IMG/VR virus record: IMGVR_UViG_3300000117_000041
Coordinates: 1 to 28,723 of that record
DNA length: 28,723 bases
Reading direction: 5' to 3' (one strand)
Source of the DNA: a virus
The stretch's first letter is position 1. Each line of letters starts with the position of its first letter. Below the pieces are notes generated by a model. That model saw only the letters and a program-made list of their open reading frames with translations, had not been told where the DNA came from and searched no databases. Made by a program: the position numbers and the translations under genes. Below, piece after piece: positions 5,232-28,723 of the stretch.

Positions 5232-5554
5232 TAAAATTTGCTTATTATGAGTTCGTCAATGTAATTTTGTATTTCTTTTTTTGTTGCAACCATAGAAAAA
5301 CTAATGTCAGCTTGAAATCTTTTAACTTCTTCGCCATCATCAAATATTATTATAGTTGGCACTACAGCTATTTTGTATTTAGTTTGATTATCATTTTGCT
5401 CTATCAAAAGTGCTTGTCTATCACATTCTTTTAATTTTGAGAACCAAACTACATCATTGTTTTTATTCCAATCTGCATTAAAGTGCACAGCTTTTATTTG
5501 AGCTATACACGAAGATGAAATAAAAATTATAATGAAGGTTATTAAAGCTTTCAT
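5231..5554 (-). CDS. Exported thioredoxin-fold protein without CxxC
   Basis: A 107-aa protein starting at 5554 in a TAATG overlap. Residues 1-18 are a signal peptide (MKALITFIIIFISSSCIA, then Gln19), so export through Sec is likely; C16 could instead suggest a lipoprotein, but the context is not a clear lipobox. After it come VHFNADWNKNND at 23-34, then YKIAVVPTIIIFDDGEEVKR at 60-79. The second block is the typical thioredoxin segment with the cis-proline (P66) followed by a strand and a DG turn. The first block sits where FxAxWCxxC would be, but both active-site Cys are missing; only C44 remains in the mature chain. It is therefore unlikely to catalyse disulfide exchange and more likely binds a partner. 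Neighbours are a Cys-rich surface protein and a membrane coiled-coil protein. Confidence 0.75.
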   Translation of the reverse strand: MKALITFIIIFISSSCIAQIKAVHFNADWNKNNDVVWFSKLKECDRQALLIEQNDNQTKYKIAVVPTIIIFDDGEEVKRFQADISFSMVATKKEIQNYIDELIISKF

Positions 5555-9397: not shown

Positions 9398-9428
9398 CAA
9401 ATATAGTTAATTTTATTCTCTAAATAAA
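9398..9428 (-). promoter_or_regulatory. Bacteroidota-type promoter for the appendage module
   Basis: In the 29-nt gap 9384-9412 the minus strand reads TATATTTG at 9405-9398, an exact TAnnTTTG -7 box. TTTA at 9428-9425 is 19 nt upstream and serves as a -33 box (consensus TTTG); it falls inside the last codons of the giant gene. The start of transcription would be close to 9391, leaving a very short leader before the ATG at 9383. This would uncouple the appendage genes from the giant gene. Confidence 0.65.
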
Positions 9429-12400
9429 GGTTCAGTTATAGCCTTGGCTGGTGTTATTTTACGAGCCGTGCTAAATGCTTTTAAATCTCCTTGCTTGCCA
9501 AACTCACCACTACGCTCATATCTTTGCAATGTTGCTAGTTCTTTACTAAACTGTAACACATTTTTACCTGTATTGATCGAAGCTGGCGGTAAAGTATAGT
9601 TAACAAATCTATTAACATCAGTAAATATTAAAGCATCATTAGAAAGCTTTTGTATTCTATCTGCATAAAAATCATCATCATCAGCAGCCATGCCCATAAG
9701 CAACAACATTGCGGTCATTCCAAAACCTCTTAATAGTGCATTGATTGCATCTTTTCTGTGCTGTGGTAATGCTTCAAACTCTGCACGCATTTCAGATAGC
9801 TTGCTTGTGCCATTCATCATACGCATTACAAAGTCATATCCTGCTCTGTAAGAGCCTATCTCGTATTCACCGAATCTGTTTATGTCCTCTTGCTTAAGTC
9901 TGTTATAAGCCAATGTTATAAACCATCTTTTAAATTGTTGCGCAGCCACACCTAATGAATAAACACTTAATAGTCTTTGATCTATTTTAGTATAACCTTC
10001 ACCGTGTAGTGTAGCTATCTTGTTGTTTATTTCCATAACTCTTTCGTCACTTACAATACCCGACTCATATTCTTGCGGAGTAAGCTCACCCAAGAAAGCA
10101 GTACCTTGTATCCAATATTCAGATAGCTCCATAGGTAAAAATGCCCATTGTTCTATTTTACTAAATGAATCACGATCACCTACCACATCACTAAACGATA
10201 ATTCAATAACTCTGTATTTTTTTAAAAGCTCTATGCCTTTCCATCCGTCTTTATTCAAAGATGTCCAGAATCGTTTTTCTCCTAAAGCAAACTTAGATCC
10301 ACCTTTATCTCTTAGCTCTTGGTATTTACCAGCAAGTATATTGCCAATACCCACACTTGTACTAAAACCTAAGTGTATTAAAGCTGTCCACCTAACCATA
10401 AACTGTATAGCTTTGTCAGCAGTTTTACCAAATATAGATGTTTGTCTTTGATTTCTTAAAAAGTTATCTCTCCATACACGCTGTACATACTCAGCTGTAT
10501 TCTCATTACCCATCTCTCTATTTACAGCTATAACTCCATCAACTAAGGTAGCTACATCATTAAACCCTCTAAAGCTTTGATCTACTGATCCGTGTACAAA
10601 TGTTACAGATCTAACATACTGTTTAAGGTTATCTGCTAGATTATAACTTGTAAGCTCTTTAGCTCTTGTAGTACGACTTGCATTAAATCTTGAGAACAAA
10701 CCACCTTCCATCAAAGTATCCATTTCTAAGTCTGTAGCAATTATATCTGTACCGTCTTCATGCTTACCTAGGGCTAATTGTTTTTCAGCTCTTTTTTGAA
10801 GTTGTCTTAAATGTCTTACTTTAGTTACTTGATTTTCATCAATTGTCCCATCCATATATTGATTTTTCCAAAACTCAAATGACTGTGGTTCTTTTCTTGC
10901 ATATTTACCTACACCAGTAAGCTTTACGTGATTTATGTTAGAAGTAGATCCTAGATGATTAGCATATAACCCAAGAAGTCCTCTTGCAGATAATGCTTCA
11001 AGATTACCCATTTGGAAATGAGGAATATATAAATCTTGTCCTTTACGTTTTAATAACTTCTTATAGCTATTAGTTATTTGTTGATATTTATTGTAAAACT
11101 CTATTTCTGTTTGAGTAGGATTTTTACTCATAAATTCTGTTCTATTGAAAAGTCTTATACTACTGTCTGGCTGAACGTCAATCATTTTTCCGTACAACAA
11201 TTCAAATCTAGCTCTTGGATTAAACAAACCTTTTAGTCCAAGTCTTTTGCTTTTAATAAGTGCTTTTTCAATTTTGTTTACTTCAGCTATTTGTTTTTTA
11301 ACCTCAACAGCATACAATCTATATTGTCGCTGTATTTCATTGATCATCTCTTGAACCTCTGGTCTTTTGGATGTCATGTTGTTTGCACCAAACCATTTAC
11401 GAATTACACTTATATCTTCGTTGCCTTCGTATTTGTATTTGCCTTTAGATTTATTTCTAAGGTTTTTGATTTGTTTACTCATTGCTTTCTTACCTAAAGC
11501 AAGGTGTAATTTGTGTAACAGTCTAGCATTAGCTACTTCGTCTGTTGTAGCCTGTATTTCTTGTATAGTTTTATTAAGCTCATTCATGCTAAGACTATCA
11601 ATACCCTTTTCTTCTAATTGCTTTTCTCTTGCGTCTAGTTTTCTATATTCATCTTGATACTGATCATATCTGCCATCAAAATAAGATTTATAGTCACTTT
11701 GTTTTATAGCATCATAATTATATCCTAAGAATTTAAAGTATTCGTCTTTATTCAACGGTCTGTTTATTTCCGACAAATGATCTAAATAAAACTCCTTAGC
11801 TTTTTTAAATTTAGCTGTACCGTCTGGCTCTATTTGAACTGCTTGTTGTAGTGTCTTTTGTTGATTAACACTTATCTTATCAGCAACATCCTTAAATATG
11901 TTTGGATGATTAACAAATAACTGTGTAGCTTTATCTTTTACAGATTTAGATTCAGTAGAAGACTCTTTATCTTTTTCTGATTCAAAGTGTTCGTCAAGCA
12001 TATCAAACTTACCGCGCATGTATTCTTTAGAGAACAATGGTGTAATAGAGTTACGCTCGAAGCCTAATTTATTCTTTATAAAATCATACTGCAATAAAGC
12101 ATCTTTTATCTCTGTAGGAAGAACTGTAAACTCATTACGAGCTAATTGTATTTGTTCTTCATTGCTAAACGAGTTGATTTGTTTTTTGTTTATTTCTATT
12201 TGATGTTGATAGTAATCAGACTTGCTGTCGTTACTTAATAATAAATACTTACGAACAAAGTTATCAACAGGTAAATCTTTTCTATTGTTATATTCTTCTA
12301 TAGTATTGTATACCTCACCAATTGTTTTATTATTATTAAGTGCTGGTATAGCTTCAGCAACCTTCATCAAATAATAATCTTCAATTATCTTTCTATGCTC

Positions 12401-15400
12401 TCTTCTTTCGAAATTAAGTTTAATCTTTTTCTCGTCTTCAATGTATGCTATAATATCACGAGCTTCTTTCGTGTACATAAATGATGTAGACTTCTGACGA
12501 TCAACTTGCTGTTGTAATAAATCAATAGAATGTTTTATCAAAGGATCAGATCTAAAGTTACCCATTGTATTAGGTTCAAGCAAACTTGACATACGTCCTT
12601 CACCATTTATAGTGTCTATAAGAGATTGTGCATCATGACCATGCTTAGGCATAGATTTATGTACAGATAGTGCTTTACCAATTGAGAATATCTCATCAGT
12701 AACGCTTTCTAGTTTATCCATAAATCCTATTAAGGCATACTGTGTGTCCTTGCTGTTTCTTTTTAATTTAGATATGTCTAAGTTTATTTCAGCTGTTGTA
12801 TACTTTTTAAGTATTGCTTTTGCTTTAGCTTTGTTTACACCACCAATCTCCATTATTGCTTGTATAGCAGCAGAACCTTTTGTTACAGTCATTACAGATT
12901 GATCGCCTCTATACTTGTCATATGTTTTAACAGCAGGATTGTTCATTATGATAGATATATCTTTTAAATCTAAACCGTGTCTTGCTAATAAGGTAAACTG
13001 ATTTACCGTGTTAGGAGTTAATCCCATTTTGTTAGCATATTGATACTTGGCATTATCTAATACAATGTTTAATAACTCTGCTACAGCAAACGCATTACCT
13101 GCTGCGTTATCTTCAGATGCTATATCAATTAGCCCATTAATATCGTTGTAACTTTTCTCAGTACCTTTTACATTCATCGTGAAGTTAAAGCCAACACCAT
13201 ACCCAGCCATTACGTTTAATACTCTTTGTAATGAAGCTACTGTACCAATCATATTTTGTGCAGGCACGTTGTCATTAAAGTATTGTTTGTCACCTATTGG
13301 TAGTAATTGTGATTGTCTTTGCTCTTCTTTACCATAGAAGTTTTTAACGGCATCTACAGCTTCTTTGGCTACCTTTTCAATGTCAATAGGAGTGGTTAGC
13401 TCGTTATACTTTTGACTGCCTATTTCTATGTCAGCAATAAGATTTATATTAAGCTCTAATAGTCTATTAGCATCAGTTTGCCATTCCTTCAAAACATTAG
13501 TAACTGGCACAGCTTTACGCTTTGTGCCTGGTATTGTAATAGCTTCATCTATATTACCTTTGTGTTCATAGTTAAGGAACAAAGAGTCACCGTCCATATC
13601 TGATCCTATAACTTCAGATACTTTAGATGGTACAGATATAATAGATCTTGCTCCTTCTACACCTTCAGCATGGAAATCTTTAACTACTATCGCTACTGTA
13701 GACTGTTTACCATGTGCAGGTACACGTGTAGCTAATATAACATCTCCAATCTTTACACCGTCTGTTTTAGCTGTAGCTGGTATAATACCTTCTGAAACCA
13801 CAAGATCTCTACCCTCTTCTATATATCTATTAAGTCTATTCTTGTATGTTCCTGTTGGAGCTTTTTCAGCTAACTCAGACATCTTTTGATATGCGTTCAG
13901 ATTCATACCTATACTTGATACCTGGTAAGCTATAGTTCCTTTAAACATAGCCTTAGTACCAAACTTAACTAATCTTGAAGCTGCAAGTTGCTGCATAAGA
14001 TTATGCATCTGAGGTAATAGTGCAGGTGCATATTGTGCTAGAGATGTATTAAGATTACCGAAAAACTCTTCGCCTATTAGCTTGCGTAAATAATCTACGT
14101 CTGCTTGTCTTTCTGCTGGAGTTGACGTGTCTTTATATATAACAGGACCTTTCTTTGTATTTTGATAGCCCTTCATTGCTTTTGCAGCTAGATCATGCAT
14201 TTCTCTAACTATAGCTGTTTCTTCTGTAGTTAAGTTAGAATGATGATGTCCAAACAGCTGTGATGGCATGTGGAATGTATGACGCTCTTTATCAAGCTCT
14301 ACTTGCACACCAAATCCCTCTCCTGATATACCTGTCCAATTACCTTCTTCAGTTTGATCGTATATCTTATCTTGCTCTTGACTTATCTCCTCAACAGACA
14401 TTTTATCTATATCTATAAGGTCTCTTTTTATTTTACCATCTGCTCCTTTGTAATATGGTTTTGGAGCATATTGTTTCAACGCAGATCCAAAAGTAGCAAC
14501 AGGTGTAAAGTCATGATCTTGTTGACTATCGCCAAACTTTTGTTCAGCTATTACTTCTTTACGTTTTCTAAGTACGTCTGCTATCTTTTTAAGAGTTGGA
14601 TTGTTTTTCTCCATTTCAGGAGTAAGCTCTACTATCTTAAACTTACCAAACGTTCTTTTGCCTAATAAGTTTTTGTTTTGATTGTTTACCTCAACATAAT
14701 CATACACGTGCTTAAAGATATGACCTACCTTACGCATAGAACCAAACTTGTCTCTTATCTTTTGTCCGTCACCAGGAAGAACATAAGCCTCAGCATCTGT
14801 AGCTTTGTGCAATCCAGTCGTTCCTTGATACTCTCCATTTTCATTTTCAAATAGATCTTGGAATGCAACAAACTCTATAGGTGTATTACGATCATGTGGT
14901 GTATGCCTCTTGATTGCACCTTCAGCACGCTTAATGTAATCTATTTCGCTTTGCGACTCACTATGCTTACCTATTAAGAGTTGTTGAGCCATAGCCTTAT
15001 TAATAACATAGTTACCTAAGAACTCTTTTAGTTTAGCATTGGTTAGCTTAGATCCGTTTTTACCTATGAGAGTATTAAGCTCTACTTGCTTTTTGTCTTT
15101 AAGTATTTCAGTCTTAAAGTTTTGTACATACTCATCAGTTATTATAAGCTTATACTTGTCGCCTTTCTTTTCTATATCAAATGGAAAGACTCTTTTACCA
15201 TCACCATATGTTTCATTAACAAGTCCTGATTCATACGCCATTCTTACCAAATCATTCTTTTGTTTTGCTGTTCTAGCAAGTATAGACTTTACATAGTATC
15301 TACGTTTAGCTGCACCAAATACAGCAATAGGTTGATCGTAAAATATTGTTTCCTTATTTGTTTTATTTAGATCTAAGTTGTATAGATACTCATTTAGGTC

Positions 15401-18400
15401 TGCAAGCATAAGCTCTTGACTATCCATCTTTACATACTTTCTATTTCTACGATCTAAATTAAAACTTTCGTTCTTAGCAACAACTACACCAGACAACATA
15501 TTGATTGATAGTTCAGATCCTGAATATAGTATTCTAGCATAAGGATTTACAAACTTGCCATCTTTAATATAGCCTAATGATTTCATTAACCTAATATAAG
15601 CCTGTTTGTTATCTCTTCTTAGTTTTGCGTAATTTTCATTTTTGTTATGTAAGCTATTCTCTTTGTTAATAATCATAGTAGGATTCTCCGCTACATCATT
15701 AACCATAGTTATATAGTTCTTTGCTCTTGACTGTACTATAAGCTCTGTAAGAATATTTTTAAAACCATTTTGTATTTGCAATACATCGCCTCTACCTTGA
15801 TTATCTACAAAGTCTTTAATATTAGATTGTACTATTTCCTGTACCGATCCGTATCTTTTACCCTTGTAATTAAATCTTCTACCAGTCTCTGTAAATAGCT
15901 CTGGGCTTATGTATTGATAGTACGATGAGTCAGTATATATTGCATCAAAGGCTTCTTTTACATTACCTGCCTTGACTAAGTCAATTACTGCAAATCTTTC
16001 TTGTGATAACTTAGTTGGTCTTTTAAATGTCTTACCCTCAAAACTACCAAACCATAATGGATTTGCATGTTGATCCATACGAGATACCCATCTCTTTTCA
16101 TCCATACTTAAAGACTCTTCGCTTATCCAAGTGTTTACACCATTGTCACCTTTTCTGAAACTAATTTGTTTCATTGTTTCAATCTTCTTGTTAGCAAAGT
16201 CAATAGACATATCTAACAGTAAAGCATCGACTAAAGACTCTCTGCCAAACTCTTTTTGCAAAAACGCAATAAAACGTTGCACCTCAACATTATCACTATT
16301 AAGAACTTGATCAACAAAAGCAAAAGCATTTTGTTTTTTTACTCTCTGCCCTATTGCAAATAGTTCTGCTAATAACTCTGATTTGTTTACAGGATTGTTT
16401 GGTGTCTTCTTGCTTTCTGTTTGTGAAAAACCTTCTATTACAGTAGATGTTGTTCCAGACAAAGCCTTTTCTTCTCTGTCGTATAGTTGTCCTGCATCAC
16501 TCTCTTCTTGTATAGTTTCTTCGTTTTGTTCAAACTGTAAAACTCTTTCTTGGTCAAAAGCTTCTTTATCTATTTCTTGATTGTTAAGTTTTTGATCAAT
16601 AGCATCCGCAAGCCTATCTAACACTTCTCTGTATCTTGCGTAATCAACTTTATCTACTAATGATTGAACTCTACGTTTTATAAAGTCATGTTGTATAGAT
16701 CCTACACCAAATGGCGCTTTTTGTTTTGTAACGCTATACTTCATGCCGTTCATCTTATACACCTCTACAAGTGCTTCTTGAACAGCAGCATCTCCTTTCA
16801 ATCCTTTAGCCGCAACCTTTTGCGTAACGATCTGAAACATACCTTTAGTAGTAACAGACTCCATACCAAATAACTTTTTACTTGGCTTTTCACTATAAGA
16901 GTTTTTCTTAAGCTGATTATCTACATTTAATGTATTAAAGTTTTTGCTGATATAATCCATCATCTCATCAAGATTCATATCAGCTATTTCTGGGAATGCT
17001 GTTTTTACAGCTCCTTCAGCTTCTTCTCTATTCTTCCCAAACTTACTTACTCTTTTGTATATTCTTTTAAATACGTTTTCAGTTTCTAATGCGTCTTTAC
17101 CATTTTCAATAACATTGAAGATTCCACCCTTACGATTGTATTCTTCATTAGAGAAAGCAAACGCTTCTTCTAATAAACCATACTGAGCCTCATCAGACAT
17201 TCTTTTAATCAAACCTCTAGCGCTAAGAAATGTAAACAACTCTTTTGAGCTTTCTCTGTATTGCTGCGCATTGCCTTCTTCTTGTGATTTACGTATAGTG
17301 TCTACAAGACTTGATAGCACATTTACTACATCTTTTCTATCACTTTTAAGATATGAATTTATGATTTGTTGACCTGTTACAAACTTTCCTCCAACACGAT
17401 AACGTGTAAGCTCAGGATAGTTAACCGCTACCTGTGTTAACCATCCTTGTTTAATGAGTAGCTTGTTCAATCTTTTTTGTAAAGCTGTGCCAGCTATAGA
17501 TTGATAGTATGGATGCGATAACTCGTGAATAAGGTCAGTCTGCATTGCAGCATCTTTATTTACAAGTATTGTACTCCCTAAGAATACAGCTGCTGCTGGT
17601 GCACCAAAACCTTCTAATAATTGTTTGTATGTAAAGGCAACGTCTATGCCTGGGAATTGTTTTTCTAACGTTCTACGTAAATAACGTTGTACTATTTCTT
17701 CACGTGGATTGACAGTAATTTGGTATATATCATTACTGCCTCTTGTGTTTGCTTTCTTATATTTTGTAAGATCGTTGTTATCTAAGTCTTGATCTAAACT
17801 ATTTGATAAATCTGTTTCTGAATCTTCTATAATTATAGCTTCATCAATAACATCCGTGTTAATTTCCTTTAAGGATTTTTTACTTTTTTTTTTAGGTTTT
17901 GGAGCTCTTTGAGAATTTTGCTTTTCTATTTCGGCCATTACCTTCTCAAATTCACCTACATTGTCTTGATAGAATTGTATTTCTTCTTCTGTAAGGGGTT
18001 CGGTTTTGTTTGCCATTTTTTCATACAATGACATTACCTTAACTCGATTTTTCTTTTGTCTTTTTGACATCCTGTTCATTGTGTCTTGGAACTCAGTAGT
18101 TTCTCTATTCGCGTCTCCAAAAACATCTTCTTTAGAATCAGGCACAGGTTTGTTTCTTTGTTCTTTAACCTTTTCTTTTACTGTAGCCGCTGTTTTCTTT
18201 ACTAAATCTAATCCTGCATTAAGAACAGATATAACTTTTTCAGTTATAGTACCTTCTAATCTACCAGCTGTAAGATCCGTCATCTTATCTAAAAACTTAC
18301 CTGAAGCACCTTTGAGATCTTTCTTTTTAATTTTCTGTATAATCTCTTCAGCTTTTTTTCTAGCTTCTTCTTTTGTAAACCCTTTGTTACCTACGGCTTT

Positions 18401-20731
18401 AAGCGCAGCTTCCACTTCTTTTTCTATAGCTTCTGCTGTCTTAGGTGCGTTTTCTTTTAAATACTTATTTACATAGTTAGATCCTTTTTCTTTTTGTTCT
18501 TGAAAAAACTTAACTATCTTTTTAGCTGGTTCACTTTGTATAACTTCTTGACCTTTTTCTTTTACAGCGCCTACAGCCTCTTTAGCTGCTCCTACAACGC
18601 CTACCGCTTTTACTTTATCCCTTACTGCCTTAGCACCTTCAACGATTGCTCCAGGCACTTTAGATATAGCTTGCCCAGCACGTTTAAGTAATCCTGCTGG
18701 CGTTTTAGCTTGCGCCTCATCAATACCTTCTGTTGTGTATTGCTCGAACTGTCCTGGTGTAAGTCCCTTAGATGATCGCTTAACACGTGATCCATCTTTA
18801 GTCATCTTACCTTTACGAACAGTAGCTATTTGTTCTACAAGATTGTCAAGTCCTGCTATTTCTTGATTTGATGTTTCTTCTAATCCAGCATAGTTAGCCT
18901 CTATATCTTCTATGGCTTCTTGTAGCTTTTGCTTATTTTTAATAGTTTTTTTCTTAGATTCTATTGCAGCATCAGCCTTCTCTCTTTCTTTTTGCTTAAA
19001 TCTTTCTATCTGAGCTATTTTAACTTTCTGTAAAAATATTTGATTTTTACCTTCATAGCTCAAGGTATTGTCTTGATGTGCCGACTGGAACATTTCAGCA
19101 TACTCATCAAATGAGTCTTTTATTTCCTCAGCATATTCAACAGACATTTGTTTTTCAGCAACCATACGATCAAGCTTCTCTTTAGCTCTGTCAGGATTAC
19201 CATTATCATTGATAAGCATACCAGCAATAACCTCTGCTCTTTGTTGTTCTGCTTGTTCAAAAGTTGCACCGCTCTCTAGCTGATTATTAAATGTTGTTCT
19301 TTGTTTCTCTAACTGATATTCTCTTTCGGCTATTGCATCTACATAACCTCCTCGCGCACCCATAGTAAGACCAAGAGCAAATGAGCTTACTCTTGTTTCT
19401 TTCATTTCTGGACTATTGAAAAACTCCATGAAACCTGGATAGCCCTCGCCTACATCATAATTAGAAAGATCAGGTCTTTCTTCATATATAGCTTTACGCT
19501 TAATCCATTCTTGATATACTTCTTGGTATTGCTCGGTAAAACCTTCTATTGATCCTGAAGCGCCAGCTTGTAAAAATGGTGCAATCTTTTGACCAAACGT
19601 AACACTACTTTTTGGTATAGACTTCATACCAGCTGAAAGGCGACCTAAACCTCCAAAGGTAAGACCGAACTGCAACATGTCAACACCAATCCATTTGAGG
19701 TTGTCTGTATAAACTTCTTTTGCAGCTGCTGAAGCTTCCTCAGGAGTTAAACCTGCCGCTAACGCTTCTGTAAGTGTTTCTCCCGCTACGAAAGCTCCTT
19801 CCGCTAAGTTACCACCAATACCACCACCAACTGCTGAAACTATAGCTTGTGGCCCTTTTGCTAATGCTGCTGTTTCATCTAAAAACTTATCACCAACCTT
19901 AGCTGATGGATTATACATTTGTGCTTTTTTCAAATTCTTTTTAGTTACACCTTTTACTTGTGCTTTAAAAAGATTTGATCCTCCTTTTGCAAACTTAACA
20001 GCTTTGCTACTATTAAGTAAAAATTTTGTACTAGCTCCTGCTGCACCCATACCTGGCACAAAGAATGACATAGAGTATGGTAATAGTCTTGCAACTTTAG
20101 TTGTCCAAAATGATGGATCAGCCATTGAAGACCATGATATATTTTCTAATTCAGGCGGAATAAATACATCATTTTTCATTTGTATTTCTTGCCCTTTACG
20201 TTTTAAGTAAGATGCTACTGTTGTATTAATACCTGCTTCTGGATCCCACGGTGTAATTGTTGATCCAATAAAATCAATAGTTTGTCCAGTACCTTCTACT
20301 AAATCTCCCCATCCTGCCGCTACACTTCTACCAAAGTCAGATTGTTTTGTTCCACCAGCAACAGATAAACCAGCTGCTGCACCAGCTAAAGTTCCCATAG
20401 GTCCACCTATTGAACCTATCAAACCACCACCTATAACTGCTGCTGCGTCACCTGCTGTAATGTCTGGTGCTAAAAATGTATCAGGATCTGTTATTTGTTG
20501 ATCAGGATTTTCTCCATACATCTGCTGCTGTAATACAGCCCCAGATTCTCCCATCATTTCAGAGCCTACAGCATTCGATATTGCTCTATCGTACGCTTGT
20601 TCTTCTTTTGATTTTTGAAAAAGTGATTCAAAACCTTTAGGCTGCTGCATGCCTTCATCATATTTTTTTGCAGCATCTGCTGGTTTTTCTTCAGCATTTA
20701 TGTTTTTTGTAAAATTAAAAAATGTACTCAT
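9413..20731 (-). CDS. Giant 3772-aa ejection protein with metallopeptidase motif and two-barrel RNA polymerase core
   Basis: Starts at 20731 (TAATG) and is uninterrupted. Residues 91-127 are a glycine zipper (GGGLIGSIGGPMGTLAGAAA); more hydrophobic stretches lie at about 218-235 and 298-310. Charged helical, coiled-coil-like sequence runs through about 470-970. A zincin motif HELSHP is at 1069-1074, with EEAF at 1188-1191 as a possible third ligand, resembling metallopeptidase domains of phage polyvalent proteins. Near 2256-2265 is KFGTKAMFKG, whose Lys-x7-Lys spacing fits the two Lys of the RNA polymerase beta-subunit barrel. RVPAHGKQS at 2336-2344, then GSDMDGD ending at 2382, match the beta-prime order RxPxxHxxS...DFDGD, whose three Asp bind catalytic Mg. 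A hydrophobic helix is near 3670-3684. I infer a virion-carried RNA polymerase and ejection protein. Motifs are seen; activity and packaging are inference. Confidence 0.75.
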   Translation of the reverse strand: MSTFFNFTKNINAEEKPADAAKKYDEGMQQPKGFESLFQKSKEEQAYDRAISNAVGSEMMGESGAVLQQQMYGENPDQQITDPDTFLAPDITAGDAAAVIGGGLIGSIGGPMGTLAGAAAGLSVAGGTKQSDFGRSVAAGWGDLVEGTGQTIDFIGSTITPWDPEAGINTTVASYLKRKGQEIQMKNDVFIPPELENISWSSMADPSFWTTKVARLLPYSMSFFVPGMGAAGASTKFLLNSSKAVKFAKGGSNLFKAQVKGVTKKNLKKAQMYNPSAKVGDKFLDETAALAKGPQAIVSAVGGGIGGNLAEGAFVAGETLTEALAAGLTPEEASAAAKEVYTDNLKWIGVDMLQFGLTFGGLGRLSAGMKSIPKSSVTFGQKIAPFLQAGASGSIEGFTEQYQEVYQEWIKRKAIYEERPDLSNYDVGEGYPGFMEFFNSPEMKETRVSSFALGLTMGARGGYVDAIAEREYQLEKQRTTFNNQLESGATFEQAEQQRAEVIAGMLINDNGNPDRAKEKLDRMVAEKQMSVEYAEEIKDSFDEYAEMFQSAHQDNTLSYEGKNQIFLQKVKIAQIERFKQKEREKADAAIESKKKTIKNKQKLQEAIEDIEANYAGLEETSNQEIAGLDNLVEQIATVRKGKMTKDGSRVKRSSKGLTPGQFEQYTTEGIDEAQAKTPAGLLKRAGQAISKVPGAIVEGAKAVRDKVKAVGVVGAAKEAVGAVKEKGQEVIQSEPAKKIVKFFQEQKEKGSNYVNKYLKENAPKTAEAIEKEVEAALKAVGNKGFTKEEARKKAEEIIQKIKKKDLKGASGKFLDKMTDLTAGRLEGTITEKVISVLNAGLDLVKKTAATVKEKVKEQRNKPVPDSKEDVFGDANRETTEFQDTMNRMSKRQKKNRVKVMSLYEKMANKTEPLTEEEIQFYQDNVGEFEKVMAEIEKQNSQRAPKPKKKSKKSLKEINTDVIDEAIIIEDSETDLSNSLDQDLDNNDLTKYKKANTRGSNDIYQITVNPREEIVQRYLRRTLEKQFPGIDVAFTYKQLLEGFGAPAAAVFLGSTILVNKDAAMQTDLIHELSHPYYQSIAGTALQKRLNKLLIKQGWLTQVAVNYPELTRYRVGGKFVTGQQIINSYLKSDRKDVVNVLSSLVDTIRKSQEEGNAQQYRESSKELFTFLSARGLIKRMSDEAQYGLLEEAFAFSNEEYNRKGGIFNVIENGKDALETENVFKRIYKRVSKFGKNREEAEGAVKTAFPEIADMNLDEMMDYISKNFNTLNVDNQLKKNSYSEKPSKKLFGMESVTTKGMFQIVTQKVAAKGLKGDAAVQEALVEVYKMNGMKYSVTKQKAPFGVGSIQHDFIKRRVQSLVDKVDYARYREVLDRLADAIDQKLNNQEIDKEAFDQERVLQFEQNEETIQEESDAGQLYDREEKALSGTTSTVIEGFSQTESKKTPNNPVNKSELLAELFAIGQRVKKQNAFAFVDQVLNSDNVEVQRFIAFLQKEFGRESLVDALLLDMSIDFANKKIETMKQISFRKGDNGVNTWISEESLSMDEKRWVSRMDQHANPLWFGSFEGKTFKRPTKLSQERFAVIDLVKAGNVKEAFDAIYTDSSYYQYISPELFTETGRRFNYKGKRYGSVQEIVQSNIKDFVDNQGRGDVLQIQNGFKNILTELIVQSRAKNYITMVNDVAENPTMIINKENSLHNKNENYAKLRRDNKQAYIRLMKSLGYIKDGKFVNPYARILYSGSELSINMLSGVVVAKNESFNLDRRNRKYVKMDSQELMLADLNEYLYNLDLNKTNKETIFYDQPIAVFGAAKRRYYVKSILARTAKQKNDLVRMAYESGLVNETYGDGKRVFPFDIEKKGDKYKLIITDEYVQNFKTEILKDKKQVELNTLIGKNGSKLTNAKLKEFLGNYVINKAMAQQLLIGKHSESQSEIDYIKRAEGAIKRHTPHDRNTPIEFVAFQDLFENENGEYQGTTGLHKATDAEAYVLPGDGQKIRDKFGSMRKVGHIFKHVYDYVEVNNQNKNLLGKRTFGKFKIVELTPEMEKNNPTLKKIADVLRKRKEVIAEQKFGDSQQDHDFTPVATFGSALKQYAPKPYYKGADGKIKRDLIDIDKMSVEEISQEQDKIYDQTEEGNWTGISGEGFGVQVELDKERHTFHMPSQLFGHHHSNLTTEETAIVREMHDLAAKAMKGYQNTKKGPVIYKDTSTPAERQADVDYLRKLIGEEFFGNLNTSLAQYAPALLPQMHNLMQQLAASRLVKFGTKAMFKGTIAYQVSSIGMNLNAYQKMSELAEKAPTGTYKNRLNRYIEEGRDLVVSEGIIPATAKTDGVKIGDVILATRVPAHGKQSTVAIVVKDFHAEGVEGARSIISVPSKVSEVIGSDMDGDSLFLNYEHKGNIDEAITIPGTKRKAVPVTNVLKEWQTDANRLLELNINLIADIEIGSQKYNELTTPIDIEKVAKEAVDAVKNFYGKEEQRQSQLLPIGDKQYFNDNVPAQNMIGTVASLQRVLNVMAGYGVGFNFTMNVKGTEKSYNDINGLIDIASEDNAAGNAFAVAELLNIVLDNAKYQYANKMGLTPNTVNQFTLLARHGLDLKDISIIMNNPAVKTYDKYRGDQSVMTVTKGSAAIQAIMEIGGVNKAKAKAILKKYTTAEINLDISKLKRNSKDTQYALIGFMDKLESVTDEIFSIGKALSVHKSMPKHGHDAQSLIDTINGEGRMSSLLEPNTMGNFRSDPLIKHSIDLLQQQVDRQKSTSFMYTKEARDIIAYIEDEKKIKLNFERREHRKIIEDYYLMKVAEAIPALNNNKTIGEVYNTIEEYNNRKDLPVDNFVRKYLLLSNDSKSDYYQHQIEINKKQINSFSNEEQIQLARNEFTVLPTEIKDALLQYDFIKNKLGFERNSITPLFSKEYMRGKFDMLDEHFESEKDKESSTESKSVKDKATQLFVNHPNIFKDVADKISVNQQKTLQQAVQIEPDGTAKFKKAKEFYLDHLSEINRPLNKDEYFKFLGYNYDAIKQSDYKSYFDGRYDQYQDEYRKLDAREKQLEEKGIDSLSMNELNKTIQEIQATTDEVANARLLHKLHLALGKKAMSKQIKNLRNKSKGKYKYEGNEDISVIRKWFGANNMTSKRPEVQEMINEIQRQYRLYAVEVKKQIAEVNKIEKALIKSKRLGLKGLFNPRARFELLYGKMIDVQPDSSIRLFNRTEFMSKNPTQTEIEFYNKYQQITNSYKKLLKRKGQDLYIPHFQMGNLEALSARGLLGLYANHLGSTSNINHVKLTGVGKYARKEPQSFEFWKNQYMDGTIDENQVTKVRHLRQLQKRAEKQLALGKHEDGTDIIATDLEMDTLMEGGLFSRFNASRTTRAKELTSYNLADNLKQYVRSVTFVHGSVDQSFRGFNDVATLVDGVIAVNREMGNENTAEYVQRVWRDNFLRNQRQTSIFGKTADKAIQFMVRWTALIHLGFSTSVGIGNILAGKYQELRDKGGSKFALGEKRFWTSLNKDGWKGIELLKKYRVIELSFSDVVGDRDSFSKIEQWAFLPMELSEYWIQGTAFLGELTPQEYESGIVSDERVMEINNKIATLHGEGYTKIDQRLLSVYSLGVAAQQFKRWFITLAYNRLKQEDINRFGEYEIGSYRAGYDFVMRMMNGTSKLSEMRAEFEALPQHRKDAINALLRGFGMTAMLLLMGMAADDDDFYADRIQKLSNDALIFTDVNRFVNYTLPPASINTGKNVLQFSKELATLQRYERSGEFGKQGDLKAFSTARKITPAKAITEPLFRE

Positions 20732-22629
20732 TAGTAATTAAAATATTTAGTCCAAAGTCTTGCTCTTGACTTTATATTGTTAATGTCTTCTTTTGTAGAC
20801 ACTTTTTCTTTGTATCTATAATATAATTCTAAATTACCTGATGCTAAAATTTCATGCAGCTCTGGATTTTCTTTTTTAAGATTACTTAAATTACCTATAG
20901 CCACCTTCATCATTTCGTGTGTATTTGCTGTTTTTTGATTTATTGCTGCTTTTCCTGCGTTTTCTAAAAGTTCTGTCATAACTATTGGTAGCATTTTATT
21001 ATCAATTCCTGCATTTAACATGCTTATAGCTATTGGAGTTGAATAAGTTTGAGCTATTAAATCTACACCACCTTCATTGCCCTCTGCATAAATAGTTGAT
21101 AATTGATTTTGAGCTTTATCCTTAAGTTTCTTTTGTTTTTCCCTTTTTATTTTGTCTTTAGCAAAGTTAGCAATATTTGTTCTAGTTGATGAAAGCGTTT
21201 CATTTATTTTTTCATCTTTATCCAAACCAGCTATGTTGACATAATCCATACTTAGTTCTTTGTAGTATACATCGTCCTGGAACATATCGTCCTCTTCCAT
21301 TTGTATAATGTAAGCTGGTTGAAACTGAACATCATCTAATGTTGCAAGTTTTTCATTTATAGTAGAAGCTCTATTAGTTGGATCTAAATCTGCTTCACCT
21401 TCTGTCATTAATACCTCTATAGTTCTTCCAAACTTATCTTTACCAATAGCTTTTTGTCCAACAAAAATCCCTTTGATTAACATATCATCTAAGTTTTTTT
21501 CCATAGATAATGGACCAAGCTCATCTTCAGTAATCATGCTACCTTGGAAATTAAACAGTCCTGCACCATCTCCAAAGTTTTCTATAATAAAGTCCCCTTC
21601 ATCAAACTGTATTCTATCACCAAATACTTGACGTAAAACTTTTTCTTGCATATCAGGATTGGTAAATATTTCACCACTTGTTTGTGCTACTATACTATTT
21701 TTAACTATAGGTCTTGAGTTTTCATCGTACCCAACCAACATATCGTAATATTGATCAGCGCCAGACGCTTTAAATATATCTCCATATGAGTATTGTCTAA
21801 GCTGTGCACCTGTAGCTTTTGGTGCCATATCCAAACCTTTAACAAGTTCAGTACCTAAAGTTGTTTTAATTTCTTTTTCACCGTAATCAGCAATTTGCGT
21901 GCCAGCTAATCTTTGTTCAAGATAAGGCATCATTAAAGTTACATCTTGTTGAACAGATTTCATAATCTCATCTTTGTTTGGATTATCTCCAATATGATAT
22001 TCAAAATCTGCAAGTAATGTAGCTTGATTAGCTAATAAATAATGCTCTAATCCAACTTTTTCTTCTACAGTCATTTCATTTAAAAATTCTGTATCAATCT
22101 CACCATCTAACTGACCTCTATATGTTATCGCATCTGTTTCTCCATTCATAAATTTAGCATAGTTATCTTTATCTCTCATAGAGATTAAATGCCCTTTATT
22201 TGAATTTTGGGCTTGTATAATTTTAGCTAAATTTTCTTTATTTTGTGAAACTTGATAAACAAAATCGTTGTTGTTTAGTTTGTATTGGTATTCGGAAATC
22301 AATCTATCTATACCAAATTGTTTAGCTTTTTCATACGATCCATATTGACGCAACATATCATTTATGGGTGTAAGATAGTCATCAGACATTTGTCTAATTT
22401 TTTCTTTGTCTTGTTGTCTTGCGTGCTGCCCTGTTAATAGATCGTTAGCTATTGAATATGATTGATCAATAGATTGTTGAAATGATTGTCGTTGCGCATC
22501 CTCTTGTGCTTGTTGTTGATCCTGCATTTTAGAAATAGCCTGCATATATTGCAGCTCTTCATTTCTTCTTTCTTTTCGACTAGACGATCCAAAAAATCCT
22601 GCTAAAGCATTGTATCCGTATGCATCCAT
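20731..22629 (-). CDS. Probable internal/ejection virion protein, 632 aa
   Basis: It starts at the ATG at 22629, 1 nt after the preceding stop, and ends in a TAATG overlap with the giant gene. The N-terminus MDAYGYNALAGFFGSSSRKE is followed by a Gln-rich helix at about 29-58 (KMQDQQQAQEDAQRQSFQQS). The rest is mixed and acidic, with no signal peptide and no clear membrane span, ending RARLWTKYFNY. I do not recognise a named domain. Its place between the lysozyme-bearing protein and the giant protein matches the internal proteins gp14-gp15-gp16 of T7-like phages, which leave the capsid before the DNA and build a channel. Tight coupling suggests fixed stoichiometry with the giant protein. Confidence 0.65.
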   Translation of the reverse strand: MDAYGYNALAGFFGSSSRKERRNEELQYMQAISKMQDQQQAQEDAQRQSFQQSIDQSYSIANDLLTGQHARQQDKEKIRQMSDDYLTPINDMLRQYGSYEKAKQFGIDRLISEYQYKLNNNDFVYQVSQNKENLAKIIQAQNSNKGHLISMRDKDNYAKFMNGETDAITYRGQLDGEIDTEFLNEMTVEEKVGLEHYLLANQATLLADFEYHIGDNPNKDEIMKSVQQDVTLMMPYLEQRLAGTQIADYGEKEIKTTLGTELVKGLDMAPKATGAQLRQYSYGDIFKASGADQYYDMLVGYDENSRPIVKNSIVAQTSGEIFTNPDMQEKVLRQVFGDRIQFDEGDFIIENFGDGAGLFNFQGSMITEDELGPLSMEKNLDDMLIKGIFVGQKAIGKDKFGRTIEVLMTEGEADLDPTNRASTINEKLATLDDVQFQPAYIIQMEEDDMFQDDVYYKELSMDYVNIAGLDKDEKINETLSSTRTNIANFAKDKIKREKQKKLKDKAQNQLSTIYAEGNEGGVDLIAQTYSTPIAISMLNAGIDNKMLPIVMTELLENAGKAAINQKTANTHEMMKVAIGNLSNLKKENPELHEILASGNLELYYRYKEKVSTKEDINNIKSRARLWTKYFNY

Positions 22630-22630
22630 A

Positions 22631-24784
22631 TTAATTTGGGTTAACTGATCCTGTTGTAGTGTTAGATGAGCCAGGGGTATTTAATCCAACGATAGGGTTA
22701 TTACTATTATTTTGTATTTTATTAGCCAACATTTGCTCAAACATATTTTTATAAATACTTGATTGATCGTTCATGTTATCTGCTACTTGTTGAAATGCTA
22801 ATTGTGCAAAATTAGAAGCTCCCTGTTTGTTTCTAATTTGTTCTGCTAAGTCGTCTGCTCTTTCCGCAGCTCCTTTTCTATATTCAAACTCTTCTTTAAA
22901 ATTAAGAGCCTGTCCATATTTATCCATATTAATTCTTTGTAGCTCTGCATCTTTTGCTGCAAAGTTTAATAAAGCTGTAGATCTTTCTGCATCGAGTACG
23001 CCTGAAGTTGCGAGAAATTTAGCTCGGTCTCCTGCTGTACCTCTTACAGAATTTTCAATACCTATTTGATATGCTTTATCTATATCTTTTCTGTGTTTAG
23101 CAGCCTCTTCAGGAGTAAAACCCATTTTAGAAAGTTGTTGTGTTTGATATAAATGTTTTTTAAACATATCTGACAAACCAGGTAGCTCCAAAGGTTTTAT
23201 TTCCTTCATAGCATCATTGTAAGCTTGTCTACCCATAGTCGCAGCCACCAATGTACCAGGGCCACCTATCATGTCTGTAATCTGTTTTACAAGACCTAAC
23301 CCTTTTGCTAATCCGTCACCAACTTTACCTAATGAATCCCAAAAACCTTTACCGTCTTTAGCATCATTATTTGAAACGTTATCGTTTTTGATTGTTGGCT
23401 CGTCTATATCTTCTGGCTTTACTTCAACTTCAGGAAGATTAACAACAAAATCATTAGGTATAGTTTCAGGAATCTCAGCTTTTTTTTCTGGCTGATTTTC
23501 TATTTCCTTATTTTTTGTACTATCAACAATTCGATCAGACAAACCATAGCTTCCTTCTGGTGTTTCTACTTCCTCTAACTGTGGCATGGTATAACCAAAA
23601 GGACCTTCTGATCTTGGAGCTCCTTGAACTTCTGATATTTCTATAGAAACCTTGTCTATCTGTTTCTTAAGACTAATAATATCATCATTGCTAAAATCTA
23701 TAGCGTTGTCTTGTATAACAGCTAACTGCTCTCTTAATCTTTTTTCTTGCTCAACTAAACCTGATAATTTTGCATTTTTATCAAAGCTAACTTTAAAATT
23801 TTCTAACTCTTCTTTTGCTATTTTATAAGCATTAAGATCGCCTGGTTGATTAGTAGCAAGATAGGTTTTGTACAGCTTATTAACTTTAGTTGTAAGCTCA
23901 TTTTGTGTTTTAAGTTTAGCTTGTTCTTTTTCTTGTTTATCGCTGTTCTCTAAACTTATATTAGCCTTTTCTCTATTTGCATTTTGTTTCCTTTCATTAT
24001 AAGCTACTAAGTCCTTTGGATCTTGTTGTAGTTGAACTGGCTTTGGACCAACAAATGTAAATCTTTTAGTAAAAGGAGTTTGTTCGAATCCATCTTCTGA
24101 GAAAAAAGCTCTATAAAATTTAGTGCCATCTTCAAACTCATCTTCTTTCATAACATTGTCAGCACCTTCTGACTCAGCGCCAATAGATGTGTAAATGTTT
24201 GCTATATTATTTATTTCTTCTTGTGTATAACTTTTGTCATCCGCAGAGTGTGTCCAAGTATTTGTTTCTGTATTATATGAAGATGTAAAGTTTGTGTATT
24301 TGTTAGTTTTTGTATCATATACTTTGTATGTTACACCGCCTCTACCTTCAGTATTTAATATATCACTAAAACCTTGTATGTATGATATTCTTTTGTCTTG
24401 TGCATCAACTGATTGATCTTGTGGCTTTTCAAAATCTAACATAAATTGAACTACTGCATCATCTACGCTATCAAATTCAGAATTTAAATAATTTTGAGCT
24501 TCTGATTCTTCTAATGCAAAATCTATTTGAGCCTTCCAGTTACTTTTCCAATCAGGAACTTGTTGCTGTAATCCTGATTTACGAGTTTTAAAGGTATGTT
24601 GGAATAAACCAATACCTTTATTTTCCATATCTCCAATTTCTACAGCATCTATATAAAAGTCTGACTCTGCTTTTATATTAGCTAAAATACCCATAGCTTT
24701 ATTATGAGTCATTTTAGGCTTAGTCATTAAATAGTCATAAACCTGTTTTGGTGATATTTGTTGTGTTCCTGGTAATACTGCCAT
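22631..24784 (-). CDS. Virion protein with N-terminal phage tail lysozyme domain
   Basis: A 717-aa protein starting at the ATG at 24784. Residues 13-143 match the phage tail lysozyme family (PF18013 type): KAMGILANIKAESDF at 29-43 with likely catalytic Glu40, then NKGIGLFQHT at 55-64, WKAQIDFALEE at 83-93 and FMLDFEKPQD at 114-123. The AESxF, GxGLxQ and FExPxD blocks are in the family order. The domain cuts peptidoglycan during entry. A long charged coiled coil follows at about 265-400. Then come an acidic Pro/Glu stretch, a small hydrophobic patch (GPGTLVAATMGRQ) and an Asn/Ser/Gly-rich end. In T7 the equivalent transglycosylase is part of gp16; here it is on a separate chain beside the giant protein. 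It probably opens the wall for DNA ejection rather than causing lysis. Confidence 0.8.
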   Translation of the reverse strand: MAVLPGTQQISPKQVYDYLMTKPKMTHNKAMGILANIKAESDFYIDAVEIGDMENKGIGLFQHTFKTRKSGLQQQVPDWKSNWKAQIDFALEESEAQNYLNSEFDSVDDAVVQFMLDFEKPQDQSVDAQDKRISYIQGFSDILNTEGRGGVTYKVYDTKTNKYTNFTSSYNTETNTWTHSADDKSYTQEEINNIANIYTSIGAESEGADNVMKEDEFEDGTKFYRAFFSEDGFEQTPFTKRFTFVGPKPVQLQQDPKDLVAYNERKQNANREKANISLENSDKQEKEQAKLKTQNELTTKVNKLYKTYLATNQPGDLNAYKIAKEELENFKVSFDKNAKLSGLVEQEKRLREQLAVIQDNAIDFSNDDIISLKKQIDKVSIEISEVQGAPRSEGPFGYTMPQLEEVETPEGSYGLSDRIVDSTKNKEIENQPEKKAEIPETIPNDFVVNLPEVEVKPEDIDEPTIKNDNVSNNDAKDGKGFWDSLGKVGDGLAKGLGLVKQITDMIGGPGTLVAATMGRQAYNDAMKEIKPLELPGLSDMFKKHLYQTQQLSKMGFTPEEAAKHRKDIDKAYQIGIENSVRGTAGDRAKFLATSGVLDAERSTALLNFAAKDAELQRINMDKYGQALNFKEEFEYRKGAAERADDLAEQIRNKQGASNFAQLAFQQVADNMNDQSSIYKNMFEQMLANKIQNNSNNPIVGLNTPGSSNTTTGSVNPN

Positions 24785-26048: not shown

Positions 26049-27778
26049 TATTGTCCTAATTGATTTTGTTGATAGAATCCAATGCCATCTTGTCCCATAC
26101 GCTGTGCAAAACCTGCAGATCCACCGCTTATATTTGGGCCTCCACTAACTACTCTTGGGGTAAATCCTGGACCTACACCACCTTGATTAGCACCTACACC
26201 CATAGCTGCAGGAATCAATGGTGATTGCATCATTGCTTCTGGCACCGTTGGTAATGGCTCCATTTTTGGTAAAGGCTCTTCTTTTCCTCTGCCTCCTAAT
26301 AAATCTTTAACACCGCCAACAACACCTTTTACAACATCGCCAACTCCTTTGACTACAGCCTTAACGCCTTTGCCTACAAATTTAACAGCATCTTTAGCAA
26401 CTTTAATTCCAGTAGTCACAACCTTCTTAGCTACCTTGGCAACTTTAGTCACAACTTTTTTAGCAACTTTAACGCCTTGCTTAACTACTTTTGCACCTGT
26501 TTTTACAACTTTCTTAGCTACCTTAGCTCCAGTTTTAACAACTTTTTTTGCAACCTTGCCAACTTTTTTTCCTACTTTTTTTACGCCCTTTTTAATTTTC
26601 TTTATAGTCTTTTTAATTTTTCCCTTAAGTTTTTTAAAAAATCCCTTTTTTTTCTTTTTTCTTCTTTTTCTTTTTCTTCTTCTAAAGAATCCACCAAAAC
26701 CAAACTCTTCTTTTTCTTGAGATGATAAAAAGTCAAAAATACCTTCACCTTCTGGAACATCGTCAGTAAGTTCATTGTACTCTGGAACATGTCCTAAAAG
26801 ACCACCTTCACTATATTGTGTTGTTCCATATGTGTTACCATATCTTGCAGCACTTTGATAATATTGCTGTGCTTGAAATTGACTTGCTTGTGCTTGTCTG
26901 TTTCTTTCAATGCCTTCTAAATAAGCATCACGTATTTCTTGTTTTCTTTGAGCTACTGCCTCTTCGTATTCACGTTGTGCTTTTGCTCTTGCAGCTTTAC
27001 GAGCCTTGTCTCGTTTTTTCTTTCCACCAAGTAGCGATATACCTATACCTATCAAAGCGCCTATTGGTCCAGCTGCCATACCAAGTTTTGCAGTTAATGC
27101 TGTGCCTACTGCTGTTCCAGCTACTTTAGCTCCAATAAAAGCACCTGCACCTGCACCTGATATACCAGCTCCAAGCATTTCACCACCTGTGAATGTAGTT
27201 GGATCATCATCATCAAACGCACTTCTTACAAGTCTTCCTGCTAAGTATGTAGGTATTGCTGCACTTGCTTTACCAGCCATTAAGTTACCATAGTATGATT
27301 TAGATGCAGCAGCAAATTTACTCGGCGCTAACTCAAAACCTGCTGGCATTTGTCCTCCAGGCAATAACGAAGCTTCGGATCCTGTTACAGGGTTTATTAT
27401 TTGCGTTGCACCTCCTGAACCTGGTATAGGACCTGCATATCTTATTTTGTCAACGAGATTACTTACACCTTTGCCTTTAATTAAACCTTCTTTACCAAAT
27501 AGTTGTTTACCCAACATTGCTGCTTGAGGAATCATTCCTACCATTTGCCCCATTCCTATTTTTTGTCTTTGATCAAAAGCTGGCTCAATATATGGGACTT
27601 CGGGAAACATAGCTTGTGCAGCAGAATACGCTGTATAGTTACCCATATTGTTTTGGTTGTATGCATACGCAGGTATTGTATTATTATACATATTTTGTGC
27701 CTGTGTATTAAAATCTCCATACGGGCTAAACATATTTCCGTATTGTTGCTGTATTGATGTAACGTCTGTTAGTGCCAT
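26048..27778 (-). CDS. Ejection-type virion protein with glycine zipper and cationic 11-residue repeats
   Basis: A 576-aa protein starting at 27778 in a TAATG overlap. Residues 1-190 are Gln/Asn/Ala/Gly-rich. A glycine zipper spans about 197-252 (GAGISGAGAGAFIGAKVAGT and GPIGALIGIGISLLGG). A basic helix follows at 253-300 (KKKRDKARKAARAKAQREYE). Then come YSEGGLL at 322-328 and an acidic patch, a run of Arg/Lys at 366-378, and KKLKGKIKKTIKKIKKGVKK. Eleven-residue repeats built on VAKKVVKTGAK occupy 409-492. The end is Pro/Gly-rich. The zipper suggests membrane insertion and the repeats an amphipathic, very basic helix for membranes or DNA. Position fits T7 gp14, an internal protein that forms an outer-membrane pore; that equivalence is inference. 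Confidence 0.7.
   Translation of the reverse strand: MALTDVTSIQQQYGNMFSPYGDFNTQAQNMYNNTIPAYAYNQNNMGNYTAYSAAQAMFPEVPYIEPAFDQRQKIGMGQMVGMIPQAAMLGKQLFGKEGLIKGKGVSNLVDKIRYAGPIPGSGGATQIINPVTGSEASLLPGGQMPAGFELAPSKFAAASKSYYGNLMAGKASAAIPTYLAGRLVRSAFDDDDPTTFTGGEMLGAGISGAGAGAFIGAKVAGTAVGTALTAKLGMAAGPIGALIGIGISLLGGKKKRDKARKAARAKAQREYEEAVAQRKQEIRDAYLEGIERNRQAQASQFQAQQYYQSAARYGNTYGTTQYSEGGLLGHVPEYNELTDDVPEGEGIFDFLSSQEKEEFGFGGFFRRRKRKRRKKKKKGFFKKLKGKIKKTIKKIKKGVKKVGKKVGKVAKKVVKTGAKVAKKVVKTGAKVVKQGVKVAKKVVTKVAKVAKKVVTTGIKVAKDAVKFVGKGVKAVVKGVGDVVKGVVGGVKDLLGGRGKEEPLPKMEPLPTVPEAMMQSPLIPAAMGVGANQGGVGPGFTPRVVSGGPNISGGSAGFAQRMGQDGIGFYQQNQLGQ
26303..26554 (-). repeat. 33-nt coding repeats for VAKKVVKTGAK units
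   Basis: Residues 409-492 of the 576-aa protein consist of seven 11-residue units and one 7-residue unit: VAKKVVKTGAK twice, VVKQGVK, VAKKVVTKVAK, VAKKVVTTGIK, VAKDAVKFVGK, GVKAVVKGVGD and VVKGVVGGVKD. Lys content falls and Gly/Asp rises along the array. The 11-residue period corresponds to three turns of a slightly unwound helix, as in synuclein- and LEA-type repeats. Confidence 0.85.
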
Positions 27779-28723
27779 TAATTAAAAGATTTTCGGTATT
27801 TAGCCATTATTGCAAAGATATTAAATTTTTCTTGAGTTCTTGCTGTTAGCTTAACTCTCAGATAAGTACCAGTTAATCTAGGGTTTTTAGATCCTGCAAA
27901 TAAATTTCTTATTGGTGCTCTTAAAACACCTTCTCTATATTTGTGTAAAGTGTCTTGAAACTCTGTTTCTGTTTGATAAAATGGATTATTATCAGTTTGT
28001 ATATTTTGTCTACCTATATCACTAAAGTCTGTAACAAATTCTATTTTTTCTACATATCTACCTATATCTGTTGATGCTATATTGTTTGAATTTACAGCTT
28101 TGTTACGATCTGTTTGGTTAACAGAAGTCCCATAATATACATTATTAATGTCACCTGTAGACATTACTACATTTAAATTGTCGAATTTTTTATTTTCACC
28201 AGGCCCTTCATTTATTACTTTTTCTACATAAGAAGCGTGTATTACAGGCGTTCTTGTAGACATTGGTGCATCTACAGTTAGTTCGTCATCTATTGCGTAT
28301 GAATCCGTAGATGTTATTGTAATATTAGACTCATACATAAAACCATCTTGTGCATCAATTGTTGCTACAACGTTACCTGTCTGATCTTTAATATCGTATG
28401 TTCCATCAGGATAATTTGATCCTGGATCTAAAATGTGTATTGCTGTTATTACTCCACTTGCATTAACCGCAGAAACCTTCATAAGAGAAACAAATCCAGA
28501 AGTATTTTCATAATTTAAATCAAACGCTATAGCAGAATTTTTTGCGTGTAACTGCGTATCAGAAAAGTATGTAGTTTTATTAGCATGTTTATGATCCCAT
28601 TGCCACAACTGCATGCCGCCTTCAACTAATTCGTGAGCACCATATGCATATTTTGCTGGATTCCAGTAGTAATTATTAGAAGTACCATATGATCCAGATA
28701 ATTGCGCTCCCGATATTACAGAA
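27778..28723 (-). CDS. Tail/nozzle-type virion protein (5' end cut by window edge)
   Basis: The frame is open from the window edge; an internal ATG at 28614 is probably not the start, because the codons upstream read smoothly (SGSYGTSNNYYWNPAKYAYG, then AHELVEGGMQLWQWDHKH). About 315 residues are visible. A short beta module has ITAIHILDPGSNYPDGTYDI, a 'pGSxYxxGxY' motif common in phage structural proteins. The C-terminus ends NPRLTGTYLRVKLTARTQEK, then FNIFAIMAKYRKSF. That closing pattern of a strand pair with a terminal YRKSF recalls the tail nozzle or tubular proteins that precede ejection proteins in podoviruses. Assignment is by position and weak pattern. It ends in a TAATG overlap with the next gene. 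Confidence 0.55.
   Translation of the reverse strand, partial: SVISGAQLSGSYGTSNNYYWNPAKYAYGAHELVEGGMQLWQWDHKHANKTTYFSDTQLHAKNSAIAFDLNYENTSGFVSLMKVSAVNASGVITAIHILDPGSNYPDGTYDIKDQTGNVVATIDAQDGFMYESNITITSTDSYAIDDELTVDAPMSTRTPVIHASYVEKVINEGPGENKKFDNLNVVMSTGDINNVYYGTSVNQTDRNKAVNSNNIASTDIGRYVEKIEFVTDFSDIGRQNIQTDNNPFYQTETEFQDTLHKYREGVLRAPIRNLFAGSKNPRLTGTYLRVKLTARTQEKFNIFAIMAKYRKSFN

Follow-up and report, generated by a model that had tools for sequence, protein, structure and literature searches.

A giant crAss-type phage protein with a predicted single-chain two-barrel RNA polymerase fused to homologues of virion proteins

The giant protein encoded in the window (here, the whole analysed stretch of 28,723 nucleotides, positions 1 to 28,723 of the IMG/VR virus record IMGVR_UViG_3300000117_000041) is very probably a DNA-dependent virion RNA polymerase (vRNAP) of the crAss type, with two barrels in a single chain that also comprises a gp078-like part, a putative zincin and a gp076/gp49-like domain; by homology, it would be delivered from the virion and transcribe early genes (Table 1). 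Sequence comparison and structure modelling together show homology of the core to the vRNAP of phi14:2 (PDB 6VR4), a two-barrel fold, an invariant Asp triad and a three-way fusion. Neither Pfam nor PHROGs yielded a significant match in searches with the giant protein.

Table 1. Features of the giant protein and of the adjacent genes, in window coordinates.
Feature	Position	Strand	Remark
Giant fusion protein, 3772 aa, whole ORF	9413..20731	(-)	single uninterrupted open frame
N-terminal part, gp078-like, residues 1-560	19052..20731	(-)	segment HMM vs phi14:2 gp078, E 2e-10; next match 0.096
Putative zincin region, residues 990-1240	17012..17764	(-)	conserved HExxH and downstream Glu
HELSH, residues 1069-1073	17513..17527	(-)	zincin-type HExxH, between the N-terminal part and the polymerase
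RNA polymerase core, residues 1660-2850	12182..15754	(-)	6VR4 profile match, AlphaFold2, Foldseek; limits approximate
First barrel (beta-like, DPBB-B), residues ~1935-2085	14477..14929	(-)	predicted from model strand pattern and 6VR4 alignment; limits approximate
Lys2007, first barrel	14711..14713	(-)	near-invariant, 60/61; the remaining row has a gap
Lys2030, first barrel	14642..14644	(-)	invariant, 61/61; aligns with a 6VR4 Lys (YLKYSQAV)
KFGTKAMFKG, residues 2256-2265	13937..13966	(-)	Lys pair of the original prediction
Second barrel (beta-prime-like, DPBB-A), residues ~2260-2390	13562..13954	(-)	model strands; limits approximate
RVPAHGKQS, residues 2336-2344	13700..13726	(-)	second-barrel motif; crAss counterpart RIPTEGKQS
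GSDMDGD, residues 2376-2382	13586..13606	(-)	Mg-binding Asp triad; three Asp identical in 61/61
Post-second-barrel region, residues 2390-2850	12182..13564	(-)	HMM vs phi14:2 gp077 1471-1918, E 3.2e-10
C-terminal domain, residues 3150-3772	9416..11284	(-)	phi14:2 gp076, 2e-15; phicrAss001 gp49, 2.2e-14
632-aa protein, immediate neighbour	20731..22629	(-)	upstream of the giant gene in most relatives with enough flank
717-aa protein, N-terminal tail lysozyme	22631..24784	(-)	PF18013, E 2.6e-16
crAss-type muzzle gene, 3' part	27778..28722	(-)	PF25731 crAss_MUZ, E 5.9e-137 on L004:2-5251

Homology and predicted fold of the polymerase core

When a profile of 61 aligned core sequences was compared with all PDB sequences, the only RNA polymerase matched was 6VR4 (E 2.1e-24), the other two matches up to E 1 being designed proteins, one of them helical and the other an assembly component (E 0.001-0.007). 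A single-sequence phmmer search with the giant protein found no match in PDB; of the sequence searches, that with the family profile was the one to reach 6VR4. The homology does not depend on the crAss sequences included in the alignment, as the profile built without them still finds phi14:2 gp077 (E 9e-16) and phicrAss001 gp50 (E 2.5e-22), both in small target sets.

Among named phages, tblastn with the core produced weak matches to 18 records from crAss-like phages and phages related to them. The majority of these matches span residues ~2222-2385, and several of the matched proteins are annotated as RNAP. In the alignment, RVPAHGKQS...VKDF...VP...GSDMDGDS of the giant protein corresponds to YRIPTEGKQS...VKEF...VP...GSDFD(V/I)DS of the crAss phages. 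The same search against named phages with the core of one relative (L025) gave no match.

The AlphaFold2 model of residues 1660-2850 has mean pLDDT 87.5 and pTM 0.86, and its top Foldseek match in PDB is again 6VR4 (E 4.8e-22, TM 0.65 on the query, 12% identity). It is followed by eleven QDE-1/RDR2 chains (6e-6 to 8e-4), and then by large subunits of the Pol II type with insignificant scores. Compared with predicted viral structures, the core model had its best named matches in proteins of crAss-like phages, including phi14:2. Hence the profile, AlphaFold2 and Foldseek agree on a two-barrel RNA polymerase in a single chain, of the crAss-like gp66/QDE-1 kind, as had been suggested by the original prediction; the features of a phi14:2 gp66-type vRNAP, that is, homology across the core, two double-psi barrels in one chain and a catalytic DxDxD, are all present. 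A polymerase of the N4/T7 type was considered and rejected, since structural comparison gave significant matches to two-barrel enzymes only and 6VR4 was found by profile.

The presence of QDE-1 and RDR2 as the second-best structural matches could be taken to mean that the enzyme is RNA-dependent, or that the protein is a former polymerase, now a dead scaffold. We consider this very improbable, as the DNA-dependent 6VR4 is far closer (4.8e-22 vs 6e-6), and a dead scaffold would have no need for the invariant catalytic Asp residues and Lys2030.

Barrels and catalytic residues

The three motifs of the original prediction (Table 1) have exactly the residue numbers and coordinates given there. Judged by composition alone, they are unconvincing: in shuffles of the giant protein, DxDGD arises in 4.7% of cases and RxPxHG in 0.35%. 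It is conservation that raises the find above chance, with Asp2378, Asp2380, Asp2382, Arg2336 and Pro2338 identical in all 61 rows of the core alignment. Both observations that might have spoken against the two-barrel assignment, a model lacking the paired barrels or relatives lacking the Asp residues of DxDGD, were looked for, and the model has the two-barrel fold, with the Asp residues retained in 61/61 rows.

The lysines are a different matter. Lys2256 and Lys2264 had been proposed as the catalytic pair, separated by the same 8-residue step as in bacterial beta, but they vary among the relatives, being Lys in 30 and 20 of the 61 rows, respectively. In the model, a long helix precedes them and the first strand of the second barrel follows. 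The step by itself is uninformative, because the giant protein contains 35 K-x7-K pairs. The sole conserved position in KFGTKAMFKG is 2260, at the start of the second barrel (Lys in 50 and Arg in 8 of the 61 rows). The model strands of this barrel are 2262-2271, 2311-2317, 2331-2336, 2345-2353, 2364-2366 and 2383-2388.

In the model, the first barrel is situated ~180-320 residues upstream of KFGTKAMFKG. Lys2030, located in this barrel, is the best candidate for the catalytic-site Lys, and its position and conservation suggest that it may contact the nucleotide. Lys2030 and Asp2378 are 348 residues apart, and hence the compact enzyme that had been deduced from the 114 residues between the last Lys of the proposed pair and the Asp triad is not seen. 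The reading of the protein as a reduced two-barrel enzyme has KFGTKAMFKG and its 8-residue Lys step in its favour; as it relied on the 2256/2264 pair, which is variable and one of 35, and as the first barrel lies farther upstream, we assign almost no probability to it.

The bridge helix, the trigger loop and parts of the clamp are expected in residues 2390-2850. A separate observation concerns residues 2134-2170 (window 14222-14332, minus strand), where Gln2143 and Gln2158 are invariant (61/61). The best local match of this segment in 6VR4 is near the N-terminus of the latter (89-222), thus out of order, and is not significant by itself; a permuted element is possible.

Flanking domains, the putative zincin and conservation of the fusion

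In phi14:2, gp078, gp077 and gp076 are adjacent genes transcribed in this order, which is the order of the corresponding segments in the giant protein, and the annotation of all three as virion proteins is based on MS/MS. The profile of the C-terminal domain also matches the C-terminus of Carjivirus gp44 (3.4e-8). The segment matches show that the giant protein is a fusion of counterparts of three virion proteins that are separate in phi14:2, which had been overlooked in the original prediction. For the C-terminal domain, no match was found in PDB, Pfam or PHROGs, nor by tblastn among named phages. No transmembrane helices were predicted in the window protein and four relatives (19-residue Kyte-Doolittle mean of at least 1.6); membrane insertion of the N-terminal part is not evident, as there is no hydrophobic segment above the 1.6 mean.

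Scans of IMG/VR retrieved dozens of relatives, with 42 distinct full-length ORFs of 3508-4701 aa. All 42 are single chains containing G[SA]DxDGD, a uniformity that is partly due to selection, as some of the scans were baited with the catalytic motif; the scan baited with the C-terminal domain gave the same picture. When HMMs built solely from close relatives of the window protein were applied to the 37 other full-length ORFs, detection was complete for the C-terminal domain (37/37), followed by the N-terminal part (35/37) and the polymerase (26/37). Thus, the fusion architecture is old in this group, and the polymerase changes faster. The C-terminal domain, with its wider detection among the relatives, is an attractive target for study. 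No relatives of the giant protein were found in 84,980 bacterial and archaeal genomes, and hence these provide no provirus or host clue; from the crAss kinship of the phage, a host in Bacteroidetes would be expected.

The HExxH region, which follows the N-terminal part and precedes the polymerase, is probably a zincin, as judged by motif and conservation. His1069, Glu1070, His1073 and Glu1189 are invariant in 33/33 rows, and HExxH is present in 41 of the 42 full-length relatives, at ~850-1250. The region was modelled with pLDDT 72, and for the window protein neither Foldseek nor searches of PDB and Pfam gave a significant match. In Carjivirus, gp45, adjoining the RNAP gene, is annotated as a crAss zincin.

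Such a region allows for another reading of the fusion, namely that the giant protein is a polyprotein, cut by a protease, perhaps its own zincin, at capsid maturation or after ejection, with the fusion serving for co-packaging only. The invariant HExxH...E motif and the correspondence of the segments to three separate phi14:2 proteins are consistent with it, and it has been proposed that the zincins of giant phage proteins process them (PMC5512222). Still, no cleavage site was identified in the giant protein, the full chain is retained in 42/42 distinct full-length ORFs, and N4 gp50, which is similar in size and content, has been studied as one full-length chain (PMC12633501). We find a polyprotein rather unlikely.

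The phage, delivery of the polymerase and known systems

The virus record is a partial contig of 48,963 bases, which encodes a crAss-type capsid protein, a muzzle, two ring proteins, a P22-type portal and TerL. The crAss-type Pfam matches are PF23898 (3.4e-38), PF25731 (5.9e-137), PF24228 (1.8e-16) and PF25702 (5e-12), and the PHROG matches are phrog_6547 (portal) and phrog_6681 (TerL). The phage thus has the set of MCP, ring, muzzle, portal and TerL of the crAss type that is expected of Crassvirales. In the TerL tree (12 rows, midpoint root, with Suoliviridae and Steigviridae as the crAss families sampled), it branches outside Suoliviridae, Steigviridae and Fpv3 with support 100/99. Its TerL shares at most ~30% identity with those of the named phages compared and belongs to no named crAss family among those sampled.

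The giant gene is located in the late virion/ejection block, on the same strand as the tail lysozyme and muzzle genes beside it, and the order lysozyme - 632-aa protein - giant protein is conserved among relatives. The tail lysozyme that had been noticed among the neighbours is borne out by the PF18013 match in the late cassette of a crAss-type phage. The proposed entry of the protein into the cell together with the DNA has good support from its homology to virion proteins detected by MS (phi14:2 gp076-078; phicrAss001 gp49 and gp50, PMC10172136). An RNAP made in the infected cell for middle or late genes would resemble the non-virion two-barrel RNAP that P23-45 has besides the virion one (PMC10770324), but we consider this quite improbable, given the position of the gene in the late virion cassette beside the muzzle and tail lysozyme and the homology of both flanking segments to virion proteins. 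A second, non-virion RNAP may be encoded elsewhere in the genome, the contig being partial.

Virions of phicrAss001 contain the RNAP-associated gp47, gp49 and gp50, and their ejection was proposed to need partial unfolding (PMC10172136). By homology, the giant protein would most likely be packed in the capsid and pass through the crAss-type tail mostly unfolded, with the N-terminus in front, ahead of the DNA or with it; it would then refold in the cytoplasm and transcribe the earliest phage genes. Asp2378, Asp2380 and Asp2382 would hold the Mg ions, with Lys2030 and probably Lys2007 at the catalytic centre. Owing to the fusion, parts that are separate in phi14:2 and phicrAss001 would be present in equal copy number and delivered jointly, and the zincin may cleave the chain after delivery.

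The enzyme of phi14:2 (gp66, 6VR4; gp077 in KC821624) shares with the giant protein the core fold, the order of the barrels in one chain, the Asp triad in a GSDxDxD context and a place in the late virion gene block. It is very divergent (12% identity in the structural alignment), with DFDID instead of DxDGD, and its partners gp078 and gp076 are separate proteins, whereas here they are fused to the RNAP. The core is also homologous to that of the crAss-like gut phages (Carjivirus gp44; phicrAss001 gp50 with gp49; E 1e-13 to 1e-22). In Carjivirus gp44 the RNAP and the C-terminal domain are already fused; the giant protein differs in having the gp078-like part and the HExxH region in the same chain, and in its cellular-type DGD motif. 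Giant size alone is not new, as vRNAPs of up to ~6000 aa are listed in reviews as a crAss hallmark (PMC10136315).

N4 gp50 (Schitoviridae) has a similar layout, being one chain of ~3500 aa that combines an N-terminal ejection part, a polymerase, an HExxH domain and another large domain (PMC5512222, PMC12633501). Its polymerase is T7-like, of an unrelated fold, and the HExxH domain follows the polymerase, whereas here it precedes it; hence the resemblance is convergent. In Thermus phage P23-45, too, a two-barrel RNAP, with DFDGD, forms part of a giant virion protein, gp96 (PMC10770324), but it is fused to the tape measure of a long-tailed phage, at the N-terminus, and it represents a different two-barrel branch; it was absent from the significant Foldseek matches of the core model in PDB. 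QDE-1/RDR2 share the fold class and the two barrels in one chain, but are eukaryotic, with a weaker structural match and no sequence match.

We tentatively suggest, as an idea to which we give rather less than even chances, that a deep lineage alongside the named families of Crassvirales has merged ejection cargo, a protease and a two-barrel RNAP into one uncut delivery-and-transcription chain, arriving independently at a layout like that of N4 gp50. The find would extend injected two-barrel RNAPs to a large metagenomic phage group in which the giant protein has no match in Pfam or PHROGs; the crAss cargo proteins are collapsed into one chain, and the fusion is conserved across this uncharacterised group. 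As N4 gp50 has a parallel arrangement around an unrelated polymerase, there may be a physical reason for tethering polymerase, protease and ejection parts. The 42 full-length examples allow for a comparative study of the fusion order and the essential parts.

Two Flavobacterium phages have giant virion proteins at a similar genome position, Elemo gp18 (3694 aa, HEIFH at 1543; L130:3852-14936) and Fpv3 gp32 (4287 aa, GLDYDID at 3114; L128:33939-46802). Neither matched any segment of the giant protein; they could be even more divergent cases.

Several minor observations concern other genes of the window. The profile of the 632-aa neighbour weakly matches the N-terminal third of phicrAss001 gp50, the RNAP (E 0.0015), with pieces out of order, which may be due to chance or to a relocated N-terminal RNAP domain. 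The muzzle gene (L004:2-5251, minus strand) has an ambiguous codon, X in the translation, near window end 28720, and because of it the ORF at the window end seems 5' open. The 107-aa protein (window 5231-5554, minus strand) has a signal-like N-terminus and, by eye, a thioredoxin-like pattern (FNADWN...VPTIIIFDDGEEVKRF) without CxxC. Finally, the 750-aa protein (window 2979-5231, minus strand) has a signal-like N-terminus, many repeats of the 'GCTD...NYN..ANTDDGSC' type and a C-terminus with weak similarity to the sorting domain of type IX secretion (PF18962, E 2.6e-4, below the cut-off), and looks like a surface or secreted protein of Bacteroidetes.
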